64,000 bases of DNA from an uncultured Bacteroidota bacterium (GTDB taxonomy: Bacteria; Bacteroidota; Bacteroidia; AKYH767-A; 2013-40CM-41-45), in NCBI GenBank assembly GCA_937871435.1, contig CALMQM010000023.1, positions 1 through 64,000 of the forward strand. Direction: 5' to 3'. The notes beneath the pieces were generated by a model. That model was given only the letters and a program-made list of their open reading frames with translations, searched no databases and was not told the DNA's origin. A program made the position numbers and the translations under genes. Positions 22,864 to 31,645 of the stretch are shown piece after piece (the stretch's first letter is position 1; each line of letters opens with the position of its first letter).

Positions 22864-22895
22864 TTATACAACTCATGTAATTTGTTTTATATTTG
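22864..22895 (+). promoter_or_regulatory. promoter of the cobalamin-riboswitch transcript
   Basis: TATATTTG at 22888-22895 is a perfect TAnnTTTG -7 box. TTA at 22864-22866, 21 nt upstream, is a near match to the -33 TTG. The transcript would begin at about 22901, just ahead of the riboswitch. Confidence 0.6.
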
Positions 22896-22905
22896 CATCG
22901 TTGAA

Positions 22906-23067
22906 TGGTTCCTGATTTTGTCAGGATTAAAAGGGAATCACGTGTGAATCGTGAACAGTTCCCGCTGCTGTAAGTTCCGTTTAATTGTTAAGTATAGGCC
23001 ACTGTCATTTAAAAACGATGGGAAGGCGCTTAACAAAGGGATAAGTCAGAAGACCTGCCGTCAACCA
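22906..23067 (+). promoter_or_regulatory. cobalamin (B12) riboswitch
   Basis: Conserved aptamer segments occur in the right order: AAAGGGAATCACGTGTGAATC, then CCCGCTGCTGTAAG (22962-22976 area), GCCACTG (22998-23004), GATGGGAAGGC (23018-23028) and AAGTCAGAAGACCTGCC (23043-23059). TGGTT at 22906-22910 pairs with AACCA at 23063-23067 as stem P1. In Bacteroidota, B12 binding to such elements shuts down outer-membrane corrinoid uptake genes. The ~113 nt between the aptamer and the btuB ATG would contain the expression platform; a clear intrinsic terminator is not seen there, so control of translation is more likely. Confidence 0.95.
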
Positions 23068-23180
23068 TACATGAAGGCTTTCGGGTAAAAAGCACGAATG
23101 ATACCGGCAACAGCTGCCTGCATCTTTCCCGCCTTTACTCCTTGCTTTTGAATTTATTCATTCAAATTAATAAAAGGCAG

Positions 23181-25370
23181 ATGCGCAATTTTATTTTAAC
23201 ATTCATTTTAGTTTATGTTTCAAGATCGGTTTTCTCTCTTGAACCAAGTGATTCACTTCGTAAGGACTTAAAAGAGGTAACTATTTCTGCTACCAGGCTG
23301 GAAAGAAATCTAATCGAAACAGGAAGAAGTGTAACTGTACTGACACAAAAAGATTTGGATAACAGCGTTTATTCCACTGTCGCCGAATTACTCTCAAAGC
23401 AAGAAGGGTTGTACATAGTGGGTAGCACCCAGACTCCCGGCTCTGTTGAAAGTATTTTCATGCGTGGCGCAAACAGCAATCAGACTGCAATTTTTGTAGA
23501 CGGGATACGAATCAATGACGGATCTTCTGTAAATAATACCATAGACTTAGGTGAACTTCCTTTAGCAGATGTAGAACGAATAGAAATTTTGAGAGGATCT
23601 CAAAGTACCTTATATGGGACATCTGCTATTGGCGGAGTCATCAATATCGCCACCTTCAAACCTGAAAAAACCGGCACCACATTGAAAATCGGTTTATCAG
23701 GAGGGTCGTTTGTCAAATCAGGAAATCAGATTTTTCCTTCCGCCAACATAGGTTACAAATTAAAAAACGGAATTTATTTCAGCACTGGAGGAAGCTACCA
23801 ACAAGTCAATGGTATTGACGCAACCATAGACACAGTCACCAATCCGCTTGTTTTCAAACACCGTGACAGAGACAACTGGATAAAAAAATGTGGTGGACTT
23901 GAACTCGGTTTTATATCAAAAAAGACAGATGTCAGTTTTGGATTCAAACATTTGCACATGAATACAGATATAGATAAATCTGCATTTGTTGATGATGACA
24001 ATTACACATTGAATTATGAAAGAAATACAGCATATGGAAAAGTCAGATATGTTGCCAATGATAAACTTGACATCGCTTTAACCTGTGGCTTCACAAAAAA
24101 TGTCCGTCATGCTTATAACGATTCGTCCCAGGTAGATAATAGTGGTAGCACAGACAAAACAATTTCAGAAGATCAATATTCCAGTCAAAACAACAGTGCA
24201 GATTTATTTGCCACCTGGAAAGAAAAAAACATTCACTACTCTTTAGGTGCTTCCTATCTGAATGAAAAAATGGATCAGGTGAGTAATTATTATTCTGCCT
24301 TGTATGGATTCCCAGCATTTGAATCACACTCATCATTGGACACAATTCATCCGGAAGCAAGCACGACAAGTTTATATGCGCAATTGGATCTGCATGGAGC
24401 TTTAATTTCACCATTCTTATCTCCCTTCGACATTATTCTAGGTGCCCGGATGATGAATCACTCCAAATTCGGACAAGAATTTGTCTGGGAGCTCAACCCG
24501 TCGTGGAGAATTACTAACGAAGCATTGATGTACTTTTCATTCAGCAAAGGTTTAAACGCGCCATCCTTATACCAATTGTATTCTCCATCAAGGTATTTCA
24601 CTTATGATATGAATTTCACAACCGGAATCCCTACCGGAAATGCCGATTTATCACCTGAAATTTCAGATTCATATGAATTGGGCTTCAAACAAAAAATTTC
24701 AACAACCGGATTTTTTGGATTGTCAATTTTTAAAAGCATTACGAAAAACCAAATTGATTATGTGTATTTCTGGGATCAAAATGTACCGATTGATCAATTA
24801 GGCACAGATTTTAACAGAGATGATTACAGGGGCGACAGGTATTTAAATACCGGTAAGCAGACCATGTATGGAATTGAGTTTACGTTTGAAAATAAAATTA
24901 ATGACTTTCTGCAATTGAGATTTAACCTGGGATTGGTCAATGGGTATATTGATTATTCTTCATCACAAATTTCCAATTCACAAACTGCAGGGAATCATGT
25001 TCAAGTCTTCAACAACGGTTCTTTCCTGAATGCTCCTGTCCGATCACAAGGATTGACCCGAAGACCCAACACAGCAAGAACAGAAATTCAGGTAACACCT
25101 GTTAAACAGTTAGATTTTATTCTTGGGTTGAGTTACGTAGGTTCCCGATCAGATGTCTACTACGCTGCCACCCGAGGTCCGTTTGGTGCATTGTCCACAA
25201 CCCCGGTTGACGATTATACATTGGTTGACATAAGTTGTCACTATCCGGTTGCCTCTCACCTTTCAGCATCCTTCAGGCTGGAAAACCTGTTGAATGAAAA
25301 ATATTCCGAAATCAAAGGATTCACTTCCAGAGGTAGAGGTGCATACCTGAAAATCACCTACGAGTTATAA
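23181..25370 (+). CDS. btuB: TonB-dependent outer-membrane corrinoid receptor (BtuB-type)
   Basis: A 729-aa receptor from the ATG at 23181; this start is preferred over in-frame TTG codons from 23142 because it places the signal peptide (RNFILTFILVYVSRSVFSL) at the N-terminus. A TonB-box-like segment KEVTISATRL follows at ~28-37. Residues ~45-170 form the plug (VTVLTQKDL, IFMRGANSNQTAIFVDGIRI, VERIEILRGSQSTLYGTSAI). The remainder is a 22-strand-type barrel ending in RLENLLNEKYSEIKGFTSRG and AYLKITYEL. Specificity for cobalamin or a relative is inferred from the upstream riboswitch. No btuFCD or corrinoid synthesis genes are in the window. Confidence 0.92.
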   Translation: MRNFILTFILVYVSRSVFSLEPSDSLRKDLKEVTISATRLERNLIETGRSVTVLTQKDLDNSVYSTVAELLSKQEGLYIVGSTQTPGSVESIFMRGANSNQTAIFVDGIRINDGSSVNNTIDLGELPLADVERIEILRGSQSTLYGTSAIGGVINIATFKPEKTGTTLKIGLSGGSFVKSGNQIFPSANIGYKLKNGIYFSTGGSYQQVNGIDATIDTVTNPLVFKHRDRDNWIKKCGGLELGFISKKTDVSFGFKHLHMNTDIDKSAFVDDDNYTLNYERNTAYGKVRYVANDKLDIALTCGFTKNVRHAYNDSSQVDNSGSTDKTISEDQYSSQNNSADLFATWKEKNIHYSLGASYLNEKMDQVSNYYSALYGFPAFESHSSLDTIHPEASTTSLYAQLDLHGALISPFLSPFDIILGARMMNHSKFGQEFVWELNPSWRITNEALMYFSFSKGLNAPSLYQLYSPSRYFTYDMNFTTGIPTGNADLSPEISDSYELGFKQKISTTGFFGLSIFKSITKNQIDYVYFWDQNVPIDQLGTDFNRDDYRGDRYLNTGKQTMYGIEFTFENKINDFLQLRFNLGLVNGYIDYSSSQISNSQTAGNHVQVFNNGSFLNAPVRSQGLTRRPNTARTEIQVTPVKQLDFILGLSYVGSRSDVYYAATRGPFGALSTTPVDDYTLVDISCHYPVASHLSASFRLENLLNEKYSEIKGFTSRGRGAYLKITYEL

Positions 25371-25394
25371 GAAAGTCAAAAATTCATACTTTTG
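25365..25394 (+). promoter_or_regulatory. internal promoter for the DUF6580-like gene
   Basis: TACTTTTG at 25387-25394 matches TAnnTTTG exactly; TTA at 25365-25367 lies 19 nt upstream and overlaps the end of btuB. It would give a leader of about 17 nt. If active, it would let the small membrane protein escape B12 control. Confidence 0.5.
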
Positions 25395-25416
25395 TTCAAC
25401 CTTATTTCATATACCC

Positions 25417-25944
25417 ATGAACGTAACCGTCACTAAAACTAATGCATTTCTCATAGCCGGATTGCTCATCTTCATTGCGGCAATTACCCGTATCATTCCG
25501 CATCCTTTCAATTTCACTGCGATTGGAGCAATCGCTTTGTTTTCCGGTGCTACATTTAAGGATAAGCGATGGGCTTACATTCTTCCCTTCATCGCCATGA
25601 TAATCACAGATACATATATCGGATTTCACTTTTCCATTCTACCTGTATATGCTTGTTTTGCATTGAGTGTGGCATTGGGAACGCTCATAAAGAATAAACC
25701 AAATGCATTCAATGTGATCGGATTATCTCTCATCTCATCAACAATCTTTTTTCTGGTTACCAATTTACCTATCTGGTATGCTGACATGAGTTTGTATCCA
25801 ATTTCATGGTCAGGAACGATGGAAAGTTATACTATGGCATTACCTTTTTTCACTAATCAAATCGCAGGAGACTTATTCTATTCCGGATTGTTTTTTGGTG
25901 TTTATCACATTCTTGAAAAAAGCAGAAAAATCGCTTTTTCATAA
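25417..25944 (+). CDS. small multispanning membrane protein, DUF6580-like (possible ECF S-component-like protein)
   Basis: A 175-aa protein of about five hydrophobic segments: ~10-30, ~38-52, ~54-72, ~75-95 and ~105-120, with a sixth near ~140-165. The stretch ITRIIPHPFNFTAIGAIALF and the GATFKDKRWAYILPF block are characteristic of a conserved Bacteroidota family that I know as DUF6580. These resemble the substrate-binding S-components of ECF-type vitamin transporters in size and topology. Position 46 nt behind btuB suggests a role in corrinoid or cobalt handling, which is an inference. No ECF ATPase genes are nearby. Confidence 0.7.
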   Translation: MNVTVTKTNAFLIAGLLIFIAAITRIIPHPFNFTAIGAIALFSGATFKDKRWAYILPFIAMIITDTYIGFHFSILPVYACFALSVALGTLIKNKPNAFNVIGLSLISSTIFFLVTNLPIWYADMSLYPISWSGTMESYTMALPFFTNQIAGDLFYSGLFFGVYHILEKSRKIAFS

Positions 25945-25959
25945 TCCCTTCCTGAACAA

Positions 25960-25996
25960 AAAAAAGACCCAGCCTTACGGGGCTGGGCTTTCTTTT
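25960..25996 (+). terminator. intrinsic terminator closing the btuB transcription unit
   Basis: CCCAGCC (25968-25974) pairs with GGCTGGG (25981-25987) around the loop TTACGG, preceded by an A-run and followed by CTTTCTTTTT. Confidence 0.85.
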
Positions 25997-26038
25997 TCAA
26001 CCTTACGGGGTTGATGGATTAATCAATCTTACGGGATT
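25968..26038 (+). repeat. three tandem hairpins with the same TTACGG loop
   Basis: The core CTTACGGG occurs three times, with TTACGG starting at 25975, 26003 and 26029. Each copy is flanked by a different but self-complementary arm: CCCAGC/GCTGGG, TCAAC/GTTGA and CAAT/ATTG. The arms have changed in a compensatory way while the loop stays fixed, so these are related RNA or DNA hairpins and not simple repeats. The first doubles as the terminator. The remaining ~300 nt to the next gene (26041-26342) show no other element that I can name. Confidence 0.75.
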
Positions 26039-26342
26039 GCTGAAAAATTTTATCCTCTTTTCTGTACGGGTTTGAATTAAACACACCTGTTGAACGCCCA
26101 TAGCTTTATTAAAGATTTTGTCCAATTGGCCAAGTATTACAGTTGTAATCAATAGTATATTTTAATCAAAAAATCAGGCTTTTTAGGGTTCTGAAAGCTC
26201 ACTCAAATGCGCCTTTTACTTTAATATTCAATTAAAGTAAGCTGGCATTAGCCCATTATTTCCAGTGTTTTACAGAATATAATTGAATTCCGCCCAAGCA
26301 AAATGCATTTTGCCTTTGTCGCCAGCACGATAATAGGCCGAA

Positions 26343-29024
26343 ATGAGACAAATTCATACATACACTATCATTTTCCTGCTTTTTACAGCATTTTCAAAAG
26401 TTGAAGCCTCGGCTCCACCTTTGTTTGACTGGCAAAAATGCCTTGGCGGTAGTGCTCAGGATATGCCTGTAAAAATGATCCAGTCCCAAAATGGCTGTAT
26501 TTTAATGTTAGGCAGCACCGGTTCCAGCGATGGAGATGTAACAATAAACCATGGCTCAAACGATTTATGGCTATCCAAAACCGATTCTAATGGCAATATT
26601 TTGTGGCAAAAGACTTACGGAGGTAGCAACATCGACATTGGTACAGGAATAATAGAACTTGCAAATGGTGACCTGATCTTATCAGGATATACGGCTTCGC
26701 TGGATGGTGACATAAGCACACAACATGGGAATTTCGACGCCTGGATTATAAGAACCAATTCTTCGGGAACAATTTTATGGGAAAAAACTATCGGAGGCTC
26801 CCTCGTTGACTTGTGTTATGCAATGATTAAAAGCAACGATGGTGGAATTCTTATTGGCGGCGGAACTTATTCAAATGATGGAGATATCTCCGGAGCCCAC
26901 GGAGATCAGGATTTTTGGCTTTGCAAACTGGATGCGAACGGAAATATTATTTGGGAAAAAACTTTAGGCGGCAGCGGACTTGATGTATGTTATAGTATCG
27001 GACAAAATAACTCTAATGAAATCGTTGCATGTGGAAGCACTACATCTTCGGATGGAGATGTGTATGGACAACATGGCGGAACAGATTTCTGGGTGGTCAA
27101 GCTGAATCAATATGGAACTTTGATTTGGAATTCATGCTATGGAGGCTCTGATCAGGAAAGTGCATTTACCATGAGTTGTGCAGGTACCTCTCAAATCTTA
27201 ATAAGTGGTTACAGCAAATCAACAAATGGAGATGTACATCAGAATGCAGGGTACAATGATCTTTGGACTATTCTGATTGATCAAAATGGAAACTTGATCA
27301 ACCAAAAGGTGTTGGGCGGATCCGGAACAGACATCGCGTTCACTTCCCTACACACTTCTGATGGAGGCTTTCTCCTTGCAGGAGGAACAACTTCCCAAGA
27401 CGGTGATATTTCTTCATCGCATGGGCTTGAAGATATCTGGTTAACCAAGCTGGACGCTCAATTAAATCTGGAATGGGAAAAAAGTTATGGTGGAAGCAGT
27501 AATGAACGTCCATCTTCTTTGCTTCAAACTACTGATGGCGGATACTTGTTCTGCGGATACAGCTATAGTAATGACGGAAATGTTTCCGGAAATCATGGAT
27601 CTTCTGATTATTGGCTGGTGCATCTCAGTTGTCATACTCCTAGCGCACTCTTTAGTACAACGTATGACTCTCTTTGTGTTGGAATGTCGGCGGGATTTCA
27701 CAATGACTCCAGGTTTGCAAGTACTTATGAATGGTGGTCAAATGGTACCCCACTTTCTACTCAGGAAAATGCGTCACTGTCATTAAATGTATCCGGTGCA
27801 TACAATGTATCACTGATTGCACACACCTGTTATGCTTCCGATACAACAACCAAACTCATTTATGGTATAACTCCGCCTGAATTCAAAGTTTCAAAAAGTG
27901 CAGCATACTTCTGTTCAGGTGACAGCGTACAACTTATCGCTCCTTCGGGCTACACTTGTGAATGGAACACGGGAGATAATAGTACTTCAATTTATGTTCA
28001 TTCCAGAGGGCCTTTCCAGGTGACTGTAAATTTCTCAGGATGTCCTTCTACTTCAGAAAATATCTACTTAGGCTCCTACAGCAAGCCACAGATAGAACTT
28101 GGTCCAGACACCATTCTATGCAACTCATCCACAATGTTACTTTCCACCGGTTTGAGTCAAGGTTATACATATCAATGGCAGGATGGATCTTCCAACCCTA
28201 CACTGACAGTTCAATTACCCGGGGAATATTCTGTTCTCGTATCGAATGAGTTTTGTTCATCCTCAGATTCCATCCATATCGATACAGTTTCGTGTAATTT
28301 ACCTGTTGCTGCGTTCAGTGTTTCCTCCCAGAATGTATGTGAACACAGCGCAATCTCGTTTCAAAATACTTCAGTGCTTTCAACTGCTTGTACCTGGACA
28401 TTTCCCGGAGGAAATCCTTCTGTTTCAAACCAGATGAATCCGGTTGTTACTTATGACACTCCGGGCAATTACAGTGTCATACTCACTGTCAGCAATGACC
28501 AGGGAACTCAGACACTGATGCGATGGAACTACATTGTGGTGCATGCTTCACCGATGAAACCAATTATTGATGTAAACGGGTTTCAGTTGAGCAGTACACC
28601 GGCAGAATCTTACCAATGGTTGCTGAATTCAACAATGATAACAGGAGCAAATCAAAATTATCTGAATGCAAACCAGGATGGCTTTTATCAGGTAAGAATT
28701 TCAGATGAGTATCAATGCAGTGCCACTTCAGACTCCGTTTATGTATCCATAACCGGAATACAGCATACCTCCAACGCTTCCTCTATCTCGGTATATCCAA
28801 ATCCGAATTCCGGAAAATGTGTGTGCACTATCTCATCAGTGGAATCCGGAAGTATCAGAATTATTGATTCAAATGGAAATGAAATTCTACATAGAATGCC
28901 CTTCACTCCATCCATTGATTCTAAGTATGAAATAGACCTCAATGATTATCCTTCAGGATTGTATTTCGTTGAATTTAATGGTACCCAAAAAGTACACTTA
29001 TCCTATAGAATACAAAAACTCTAA
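26343..29024 (+). CDS. T9SS-secreted seven-repeat beta-propeller protein with PKD domain
   Basis: An 893-aa exported protein with a signal peptide of ~23 residues (FLLFTAFSKVEAS). Residues ~33-440 contain exactly seven repeats of about 58 residues with the consensus GGSxxDxxxxxxxxxxGxxxxxGxTxSxDGDVxxxHGxxDxWxxKxDxxGNxxWxKxx; seven such blades suggest a closed beta-propeller. Residues ~440-650 are Ig-like, and ~655-735 is a PKD domain (CTWTFPGGNPSVSNQMNP, YDTPGNYSVILTVSN). The C-terminus (VYPNPNSGK at ~820, SGLYFVEFNG) is a T9SS type A sorting domain. Function unknown; binding rather than catalysis is suggested by the architecture. Three micro-genes follow within 12 nt. Confidence 0.88.
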   Translation: MRQIHTYTIIFLLFTAFSKVEASAPPLFDWQKCLGGSAQDMPVKMIQSQNGCILMLGSTGSSDGDVTINHGSNDLWLSKTDSNGNILWQKTYGGSNIDIGTGIIELANGDLILSGYTASLDGDISTQHGNFDAWIIRTNSSGTILWEKTIGGSLVDLCYAMIKSNDGGILIGGGTYSNDGDISGAHGDQDFWLCKLDANGNIIWEKTLGGSGLDVCYSIGQNNSNEIVACGSTTSSDGDVYGQHGGTDFWVVKLNQYGTLIWNSCYGGSDQESAFTMSCAGTSQILISGYSKSTNGDVHQNAGYNDLWTILIDQNGNLINQKVLGGSGTDIAFTSLHTSDGGFLLAGGTTSQDGDISSSHGLEDIWLTKLDAQLNLEWEKSYGGSSNERPSSLLQTTDGGYLFCGYSYSNDGNVSGNHGSSDYWLVHLSCHTPSALFSTTYDSLCVGMSAGFHNDSRFASTYEWWSNGTPLSTQENASLSLNVSGAYNVSLIAHTCYASDTTTKLIYGITPPEFKVSKSAAYFCSGDSVQLIAPSGYTCEWNTGDNSTSIYVHSRGPFQVTVNFSGCPSTSENIYLGSYSKPQIELGPDTILCNSSTMLLSTGLSQGYTYQWQDGSSNPTLTVQLPGEYSVLVSNEFCSSSDSIHIDTVSCNLPVAAFSVSSQNVCEHSAISFQNTSVLSTACTWTFPGGNPSVSNQMNPVVTYDTPGNYSVILTVSNDQGTQTLMRWNYIVVHASPMKPIIDVNGFQLSSTPAESYQWLLNSTMITGANQNYLNANQDGFYQVRISDEYQCSATSDSVYVSITGIQHTSNASSISVYPNPNSGKCVCTISSVESGSIRIIDSNGNEILHRMPFTPSIDSKYEIDLNDYPSGLYFVEFNGTQKVHLSYRIQKL

Positions 29025-29035
29025 AACTAAAAAAT

Positions 29036-29119
29036 ATGATCTACGCAATCATTGGCATTTATGTATTAGGCTTTCTTCTTATGATTAAAGAAGACCGCGC
29101 AAAAAAATCATCCAATTAA
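29036..29119 (+). CDS. single-span membrane microprotein 1 (27 aa)
   Basis: ATG at 29036, 27 codons, stop TAA at 29117-29119; too short for ordinary gene callers. It begins MIYAIIGIYVLGFLLMI (one hydrophobic span, residues 2-17), followed by KEDRAKK, a positively charged tail that predicts the C-terminus in the cytoplasm. The start sits 12 nt after the preceding stop in an A-rich leader. Two further genes of the same design follow at once, which is the main reason to believe it is real. No family is recognised. It could be an accessory subunit of a membrane complex, but nothing here says which. Confidence 0.6.
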   Translation: MIYAIIGIYVLGFLLMIKEDRAKKSSN

Positions 29120-29143
29120 TTAAACAACCTAAAAAAAAACAAC

Positions 29144-29227
29144 ATGATTTACGCTGTACTCGGATTGTATGTAGCCGGATTGTTCTTACTCATCCTCGAA
29201 GATGTGAAGAAAAAATCGACTAAATAA
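29144..29227 (+). CDS. single-span membrane microprotein 2 (27 aa)
   Basis: ATG at 29144, 27 codons, stop at 29225-29227, preceded by a long A-run. Sequence plan is the same as that of microprotein 1: MIYAVLGLYVAGLFLLI as the membrane span, then LEDVKKK. Identity to microprotein 1 is high over the span (MIYA, G, YV, G at the same positions) and at the ED-x-(R/K)-KK boundary. The gap to its predecessor is 24 nt. Function unknown. Confidence 0.6.
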   Translation: MIYAVLGLYVAGLFLLILEDVKKKSTK

Positions 29228-29249
29228 TTTAAATTAAAAACTGATCCTC

Positions 29250-29366
29250 ATGAACTTTACAATGATCGTTCTGTATGTCGCGAGTTTGTATTACATGCTG
29301 GCGGAAGATTCAAGGAAGAAAATTTCGAAAGAAGATTCTGACAAGCAGGTAGACAAACTGAATTAA
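29250..29366 (+). CDS. single-span membrane microprotein 3 (38 aa)
   Basis: ATG at 29250, 38 codons, stop at 29364-29366. The span MIVLYVASLYYML (residues 5-17) aligns with the spans of the two preceding peptides around YV, and AEDSRKK repeats their ED-x-x-K boundary. It has an extra charged, lysine- and aspartate-rich tail of about 11 residues. The gap to its predecessor is 22 nt. A palindrome (TAAATTCA / TGAATTTA, 29375-29397) lies between its stop and the convergent AIM24-family gene, but without a T-run. Function unknown. Confidence 0.55.
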   Translation: MNFTMIVLYVASLYYMLAEDSRKKISKEDSDKQVDKLN

Positions 29367-29410
29367 TACATCAGTAAATTCAGGATCATTGAATTTAAAA
29401 GGAGAAAAAG

Positions 29411-30169
29411 CTATTTATCTCCGGAGATCAGGGTGCCAAACAAACCTCCCAATCCGCGTGATTCTTCCCTATTTCCGCCCCAGCGCGATGCCGAGATAAT
29501 TCTGTCAGCAAGTCTGGAGAAGGGAAGTGTTTGTAAATAGACTACACCTGGTCCGGTTAATTTGGCGTAGAACATTCCTTCGCCACCGAACAGTACATTT
29601 TTGAATCCGCCAATAAACTGGATGTCATAATTCACAGTTGGCTGAAAAGCAACAAGACATCCCGTGTCTACACGAAGGCTCTCATTGGCTTTGAGTGTTT
29701 TTTGAATTACTGTTCCTCCTGCATGAACGAATGCAAGACCATCGCCACTTAATCTTTGGAGGATGAAACCTTCCCCACCAAAGAGTCCGGCTCCTATTTT
29801 TTTGGTAAACTCGACACTGATGTCAATACCTTCGGCAGAGCACAAATATCCGTCTCTTTGGCAAAGGAATGATCCTCCCAATTCTCCAAGGTGCAGAGGA
29901 ATAATTTTCCCCGGATATGGAGCCGCGAATGTAACTCGTGATTTTCCTACGCCATTGTTGAGGAAGGAGGTGATAAAGAAATTTTCACCGGAAATGATTC
30001 TTTTCAAACCTTGAAAAATTCCACCACCGGATGATGTTTGCATTTCAATTCCATCCTCCATGTACAACATGGCTCCAACTTCTGCTCTGACTGCTTCTTT
30101 CGGATCAAGTTCTACCTCGACCGCTTGCATATCATCTCCAAATATTTTGTAATCTATTTCGTGTGCCAT
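29411..30169 (-). CDS. AIM24/TIGR00266-family protein
   Basis: A 252-aa protein without signal peptide. It shows the family's beta-rich double-psi-like pattern with repeated glycine motifs: AEVGAMLYMEDGIEMQTS, GGGIFQGLKRIISGENFFI, GGSFLCQRDGYLCSAEG, FGGEGFILQRLSGDGLAFV and FGGEGMFYAKLTGPGVVYLQ. Length and motif order fit the family from end to end. Its molecular role in bacteria is not established; the name comes from a yeast mitochondrial inner-membrane protein. It is downstream of the phosphohexomutase gene on the same strand, with a 66-nt gap. Confidence 0.88.
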   Translation of the reverse strand: MAHEIDYKIFGDDMQAVEVELDPKEAVRAEVGAMLYMEDGIEMQTSSGGGIFQGLKRIISGENFFITSFLNNGVGKSRVTFAAPYPGKIIPLHLGELGGSFLCQRDGYLCSAEGIDISVEFTKKIGAGLFGGEGFILQRLSGDGLAFVHAGGTVIQKTLKANESLRVDTGCLVAFQPTVNYDIQFIGGFKNVLFGGEGMFYAKLTGPGVVYLQTLPFSRLADRIISASRWGGNREESRGLGGLFGTLISGDK

Positions 30170-30235: not shown

Positions 30236-31645
30236 TTAACTCAACAAGGTTTTTTCGGCCGCCTTTAGTATTTCGAATGCTTTTTCTCTGGATGTTGACT
30301 CAGCATATGTACGCAATACCGGTTCAGTTCCTGAGGCCCGTATCAATAGCCATTCAGTATTGGTATCATCAAAAAAGTACTTATATCCATCCAAATCTTC
30401 AGTGCGCTTAATTTTGTATTTACCAAACTCAGTATAATTTCCTTTCCTGGTATTTTCAATGATACGCTGTTTTACTTCTTCTTTTAGATGCAAATCACTT
30501 CTCTCAAAAGAAAAAGGACCAACAATATCATAGACTTCCTGAATTAATTCAGGAAGTTTCTTACCACTCTTTGCCATGAACTCCCAGATCACAAGCCCCA
30601 TCCAGATTCCATCTCGTTCAGGAATATGTCCTTTGATCGCAATTCCACCACTTTCTTCTCCTCCAAGCAGTACATCTTCAGTGACCATGATCTGACAAAT
30701 GTATTTGAATCCGATCTTTACGGTTTCCAAATCGAGACCATAATGTTTGCACAGCTTTTCCACCTTTGGTGTAGTACTGAAAGCTGTACAAACTTTCCCA
30801 CGAACTCCTTTGTATTTGTACAGATAATGGATCAGCAACAAAATAATGTGATGCGAATCCACAAAATTTCCCTTTCCATCATACATTCCAATCCGATCTG
30901 CATCGCCATCTGTGACCAAACCACACTCAATATTTCCTCGTTGTTTAATCAGTTCCCGAAATTCATTCAGGTTTTTATCGATAGGTTCGGGAGCTTGTCC
31001 ATGAAAACCAGGATTATTTTCACAGTGCAGTAAAGTCATATCAGGAAAGAGTCGGCGAATTACATTCTGACCTGCACCATACATGGCATCGTATGCAAGA
31101 TTCATCCCTGATTTACGAATAGCATCCAGATCAAAATTTTTCTCAACATGCTTGATGTATTCATCTTCCAAAGCAACCCATTGAAGCAATCCTGTTTTTT
31201 CAACATCGCCGATACTTCCGGAAAGATTCGTTGAAGATGAATCCGGAATCATGTCTTCAATCTGCTGAACAAGGTCCGGACTAAGAGGCCCCCCATAGCT
31301 TCCCTTCAATTTAAATCCATTATAACTTGGCGGATTGTGAGATGCAGTTATGATAATACCTAAATCACACTTATTCATCAATGTTCCCAAAGAAATCATT
31401 GGAGTTGAAACAAAGTTTTTTGCCAGGTAAGTTTTGACTCCATGTGCAGCCATCACTTTGGTCACTGTATGAGCAAACAGTTCACCGGCAAATCTGCAAT
31501 CATGACCAACCATTACAGTTGGGTTTTTCTTTTGCTTCAATAACCATTTGGCAGTCGCTTCAGAAACTCTGGCTACGTTTTCAACTGTAAAATCCTGAGC
31601 GATGATTGCACGCCATCCGTCCGTTCCAAATTTTATTTTATCCAT
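30236..31645 (-). CDS. phosphoglucomutase/phosphomannomutase family enzyme
   Basis: A 469-aa cytosolic alpha-D-phosphohexomutase that moves phosphate between C1 and C6 of a hexose. Diagnostic motifs appear in order: FGTDGWRA near the start (~7), the phosphoserine loop ITASHNPPSYNGFKLKG (~99), the metal-binding DGDADRIG (~244), the sugar-binding GEESGG (~326) and the phosphate-binding RASGTEPVLRTY (~440). The length is normal. Whether glucose, mannose or another hexose is preferred cannot be told from these motifs. It supplies sugar 1-phosphates for glycogen or polysaccharides. Confidence 0.92.
   Translation of the reverse strand: MDKIKFGTDGWRAIIAQDFTVENVARVSEATAKWLLKQKKNPTVMVGHDCRFAGELFAHTVTKVMAAHGVKTYLAKNFVSTPMISLGTLMNKCDLGIIITASHNPPSYNGFKLKGSYGGPLSPDLVQQIEDMIPDSSSTNLSGSIGDVEKTGLLQWVALEDEYIKHVEKNFDLDAIRKSGMNLAYDAMYGAGQNVIRRLFPDMTLLHCENNPGFHGQAPEPIDKNLNEFRELIKQRGNIECGLVTDGDADRIGMYDGKGNFVDSHHIILLLIHYLYKYKGVRGKVCTAFSTTPKVEKLCKHYGLDLETVKIGFKYICQIMVTEDVLLGGEESGGIAIKGHIPERDGIWMGLVIWEFMAKSGKKLPELIQEVYDIVGPFSFERSDLHLKEEVKQRIIENTRKGNYTEFGKYKIKRTEDLDGYKYFFDDTNTEWLLIRASGTEPVLRTYAESTSREKAFEILKAAEKTLLS

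Follow-up and report, generated by a model that had tools for sequence, protein, structure and literature searches.

Accessory subunits of the CydX, KdpF, and AcrZ type are very short, single-span proteins, several of which are encoded beside the gene of a larger partner. Type I toxins such as Ldr, Ibs, and ShoB are short hydrophobic peptides, sometimes encoded in tandem. By analogy, the most useful experimentally studied counterpart of the microproteins described here is YohP, a 27-residue protein with a C-in/N-out orientation that is inserted in an SRP-dependent manner and dimerizes via one mid-helix glycine (PMC7549839), and that affects both the membrane and metabolism (PMC12719787).

The window analyzed here, a stretch of 64,000 nucleotides from an uncultured Bacteroidota bacterium, holds three small genes whose products resemble YohP in length (27 aa), in a single transmembrane helix, in a small residue at mid-helix, and in the C-in/N-out orientation, which was measured for YohP and is predicted here. 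No homology was detected behind this likeness: the YohP family model NF011345 gives no match for the window copies and at best 15.8 bits, against a curated cut-off of 58, for one of seven members, a score that does not amount to membership. The setting also differs: in Escherichia coli, YohP has been tied to starvation and stress, whereas the microprotein lies behind a gene for a T9SS cargo and is triplicated. With CydX, KdpF, and AcrZ the microproteins share their very short, single-span form and their place beside a larger gene; however, the neighbor is a predicted secreted cargo rather than an inner-membrane complex, and neither Pfam nor NCBIfam yields a sequence match above cut-off. Unlike the type I toxin genes, they sit directly behind a conserved gene, where an antisense RNA gene would have little space.

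Three frames behind a T9SS gene

An earlier note on this DNA had described three consecutive ATG-to-stop frames behind a T9SS-tagged gene, and these are present with the translations it gave (MIYAIIGIYVLGFLLMIKEDRAKKSSN, MIYAVLGLYVAGLFLLILEDVKKKSTK, and MNFTMIVLYVASLYYMLAEDSRKKISKEDSDKQVDKLN for copies 1 to 3; Table 1). All three copies share residues M1, Y9, V10, E19, D20, K23, and K24. The gaps had been put at 12, 24, and 22 nt; the latter two, which are the spacers between copies, agree, whereas the first, from the stop of the upstream gene to the ATG of copy 1, is 11 nt (29025–29035). The starts are spaced 108 and 106 nt apart. An A-rich leader is seen at each start, as had been noted, with adenines at −3 and −6 in copies 1 and 2 and at −6 only in copy 3. 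That no competing frame exists is nearly right, although frames of 21–48 codons, which were judged meaningless, do overlap the array. The upstream gene had been called a T9SS propeller gene. Its T9SS sorting tail (Por_Secre_tail/TIGR04183) was found, together with a PKD domain, and the propeller part of the name corresponds only to a weak resemblance of the N-terminal half to SBBP/LipL53-type propellers. None of the microproteins carries the sorting tail (PF18962/TIGR04183), which is confined to the upstream gene.

Table 1. Positions of the microprotein genes and neighboring features in the window
Feature	Position	Strand	Description	Evidence
Microprotein copy 1	29036..29119	+	27 aa, single hydrophobic span and KEDRAKK tail	ORF, HMM/homologues, selection and frame tests
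Microprotein copy 2	29144..29227	+	27 aa, LEDVKKK tail	ORF; 56% aa identity to copy 1; pS 0.90, pN 0.31
Microprotein copy 3	29250..29366	+	38 aa, AEDSRKK and acidic/basic extension	ORF; 37% aa identity to copy 1; helix prediction
T9SS-exported propeller/PKD protein	26343..29024	+	893 aa	PF18962, PF18911, TIGR04183; orthologues
Conserved block, candidate promoter	26247..26287	+	41 nt	Gap alignment of G000, G007, G008, G009
AIM24/TIGR00266 gene	29411..30169	-	Convergent neighbor	PF01987, E 4.8e-74
Phosphoglucomutase/GlmM-like gene	30236..31645	-	Convergent syntenic anchor in all five genomes	

Across the family, the microproteins comprise 25–38 residues with one predicted helix, within the YohP-type class of proteins of <50 aa with one transmembrane helix, and their best 15-residue mean hydropathy is 1.8–2.7. 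AlphaFold2 predicts copy 3 to be one continuous helix over residues 2–37 with a mean pLDDT of 79, an outcome expected for any such peptide. At residue 12, Gly stands in four of the five members that align without a gap, and Ser in copy 3. Because the N terminus is uncharged and the C terminus is rich in Lys and Arg, the positive-inside rule predicts a location in the inner membrane, and to judge by this distribution of charge the topology should be N-out/C-in.

With a DNA identity of only 47–56% among the copies and synonymous sites close to saturation, the triplication is taken to be old. The same values rule out a recent duplication or a sequencing artifact, against which it also speaks that Tandem Repeats Finder detected nothing in the array. 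The array would thus have arisen long ago by tandem triplication of a unit of about 107 bp, with all three copies retained. A profile search of the same genome found no fourth copy. The microprotein is single-copy in the four other genomes in which it occurs, such that the triplication is seen only in the present genome and the array was not seen to recur at other loci, a question that the earlier note had raised.

Coding evidence, selection, and distribution

Random sequences were generated to match the dinucleotide composition of intergenic DNA in the window. Of 60000 such sequences, 163 had an ATG within 30 nt that opens a hydrophobic frame of 24–40 aa with a basic tail; the chance of a frame of this kind behind a stop is therefore only about 0.3%, a value that serves as a guide and not as a strict test because the criteria were fixed after the frames had been seen. 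In the window itself, one of 38 long genes has such a frame 3′ of it, namely the T9SS gene. For all three copies, codon usage gives a positive log-likelihood in frame 0 and a negative one in each of the remaining five. Copies 1 and 2 are identical at 14 of the 24 residues after the Met, yet their nucleotide identity is 56%, and their residue identity is higher than when the same mismatches are placed at random (P = 0.0005). Over the 24 aligned codons, the mismatches fall 10, 4, and 18 times at codon positions 1, 2, and 3, respectively, which corresponds to the pS and pN values of Table 1. When the three copies are compared with one another and with their homologues in G004 and G008, pN is below pS in 10 of 10 pairs, with P < 0.05 in nine (the exception is copy 3 with G004, P = 0.27), although the ten pairs are not mutually independent and a gene of 27 codons gives weak statistics. 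The microproteins are, to judge from these comparisons, related, frame-specific, and under purifying selection, and the proposal of duplication and selection in the earlier note is borne out by the relatedness of the copies and by their synonymous-biased substitutions.

The frames are almost certainly real protein-coding genes. They are very short, and the case for their translation is drawn from sequence, so it might be argued that they are untranslated, with the likeness arising by chance or the DNA being kept for some other reason. We consider this highly improbable in view of the frame-specific codon usage, the synonymous bias, and the rarity of chance frames of this kind; in addition, there are no inverted repeats in 28900–29450. 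A profile built from the three window copies also reaches orthologous sites in other genomes. Over 120 genomes, its best outside match is a 25-aa frame in G004 (E = 3.2e-4), and the weaker matches include a 29-aa frame in G008 (E = 0.05). These genomes represent two other genera, and in both the frame occupies exactly the orthologous site: it directly follows the orthologous T9SS gene and faces AIM24 in convergent orientation. Both outcomes that would have told against the proposal, a lack of related frames in close relatives and a lack of synonymous bias, are thus contradicted.

Two further single-span members, MMYAIAFICLYAGAVYLYMMLSRDKK in G007 (26 aa) and MMMIYTVVFILAYAGAIYFLAQEKKEDNSTKSERN in G009 (35 aa), lie 15–20 nt 3′ of the orthologous T9SS gene; they were found by synteny rather than by the first profiles, and their alignment needs a 2-residue gap. 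In total, five of the six full orthologues of the T9SS gene have the microprotein immediately behind the stop, at a distance of 5–20 nt in the five genomes. The sixth, in G002, is located elsewhere and has no microprotein, which implies that the propeller can do without it. A microprotein-like frame was found at none of 23 further propeller loci, a set that includes the G002 locus and in which four loci end within 60 nt of the propeller stop or before it, and none of the paralogous propeller genes examined has a microprotein behind it.

Enlarged profiles, run on 42 genomes from the order and on class-wide and phylum-wide samples of about 395 genomes each, gave nothing convincing outside the same taxonomic family. 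Weak profile matches in other Bacteroidota fell mostly inside long reading frames or covered the model only in part, and all were set aside. A DNA-level search for the array in 61 genomes returned noise only, besides the array itself. Pfam contains no microprotein match near cut-off, NCBIfam none above cut-off, and the PDB none; the best PHROGs value (E = 0.055, a single member) was not counted as a match, and no paper on this microprotein family was found in the literature searched. By these searches, the microproteins form a new family, unannotated and narrowly distributed, within the well-known class of small membrane proteins with a single span. The suggestion of an overlooked family of membrane peptides is thereby supported, yet the family is confined, in the genomes searched, to five genomes of one taxonomic family.

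The surrounding locus and its hairpin array

The syntenic order is TonB receptor, DUF6580 membrane protein, intergenic hairpin array, T9SS gene, microprotein, and convergent AIM24 and/or glmM. The microprotein lies between the propeller gene and glmM in five of five genomes, with or without AIM24. AIM24 was rejected as a functional partner: G007 and G009 lack it but keep the microprotein, with glmM next in line, and the microprotein is absent from many genomes that have AIM24. In G009 (L209), the interval of about 240 nt between microprotein and glmM, read by eye, may hold a decayed remnant of a lost AIM24.

Upstream, a cobalamin riboswitch stands 5′ of the TonB receptor, and riboswitch, receptor, and DUF6580 gene are consecutive in the window (22888–25944). 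This arrangement, with receptor and DUF6580 conserved in related genomes, suggests a role for DUF6580 in B12 uptake. In G001, the B12-uptake genes appear tentatively to be followed directly by glmM, without propeller and microprotein; the junction falls at a contig break, and contigs L278 (B12 locus) and L246 (glmM) carry an identical 119-nt stretch at the hairpin array.

The DUF6580 gene is followed, at 25968–26039, by three hairpins in a row that share the invariant loop CTTACGGG and differ in their stems (CCCAGC, CAAC, and CAAT). Their order is conserved in G000, G004, G007, G008, and G009, with CAGC as the second stem in G008; G002 has three such hairpins and G001 five. Rfam has no match for these hairpins. 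Arrays of 3–14 hairpins occur in other Bacteroidota (L284, L286, L288, L281, L283, L285, and L290), and overall in 18 of 199 genomes, the microprotein-bearing taxonomic family included, mostly at one locus each; a reversed-pattern control matched one genome. At least three flanking stem pairs were found for 89 of 110 loops, compared with 28% when partners were shuffled, and 61 distinct 5′ stems occur, that is, varying paired stems surround a fixed loop. The arrays are intergenic, and their neighbors differ between genomes. They may be an as yet unclassified RNA that binds protein, or a repeat element of that status.

Possible roles of the microproteins

The A-rich start sites stand 11–20 nt behind the propeller stop, and the microprotein is probably on the same mRNA as the propeller gene. 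In Flavobacterium johnsoniae, adenines at −3 and −6 increase translation (PMC6847099). The 41-nt block conserved in four genomes lies about 55 nt 5′ of the T9SS gene and could serve as the promoter for propeller and microprotein together. The reading that we favor, and hold to be somewhat probable, is that of an unannotated inner-membrane family, co-transcribed with the T9SS gene, oriented N-out/C-in, and acting, much as YohP and similar small proteins do, as accessory or regulator. Its members would be made together with the T9SS protein and would act through helix–helix contact; it is analogy and gene order from which we infer the accessory role.

A more specific proposal, in which a dedicated inner-membrane micropeptide in three diverged copies would aid the export, attachment, or regulation of one T9SS-exported protein, seems to us quite unlikely; if true, one T9SS cargo gene would have a small-protein partner of its own. 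The microproteins could instead be general membrane modulators like YohP, which have no fixed partner but insert, dimerize, and alter the membrane, three copies raising the dose and the propeller-gene link reflecting shared regulation only. The length class, the predicted C-in form, and the NCBIfam YohP match of one member (15.8 bits) agree with this proposal, but that match is far below cut-off and likely reflects hydrophobic composition, and nothing would oblige a general modulator to keep its place beside the same cargo gene in five genomes; we regard this proposal as unlikely. Their size, hydrophobicity, basic tail, and tandem repetition also resemble toxins of the Ldr/Ibs type, which would make the array a type I toxin-antitoxin-like set of small hydrophobic toxins checked by antisense RNA. 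With spacers of 22–24 nt in which each copy could hardly have an antisense gene and promoter of its own, with every member tied to one upstream gene at 5–20 nt in five genomes, and with no RNA found by Rfam at the site, this explanation is very doubtful.

That three copies, old and diverged, have been retained suggests a role for dose or hetero-oligomerization. Genes so short often escape standard annotation, and comparative evidence alone here makes a strong case that the family is real. A small-protein family of little-studied Bacteroidota that is linked to one exported protein constitutes a concrete, testable pair.
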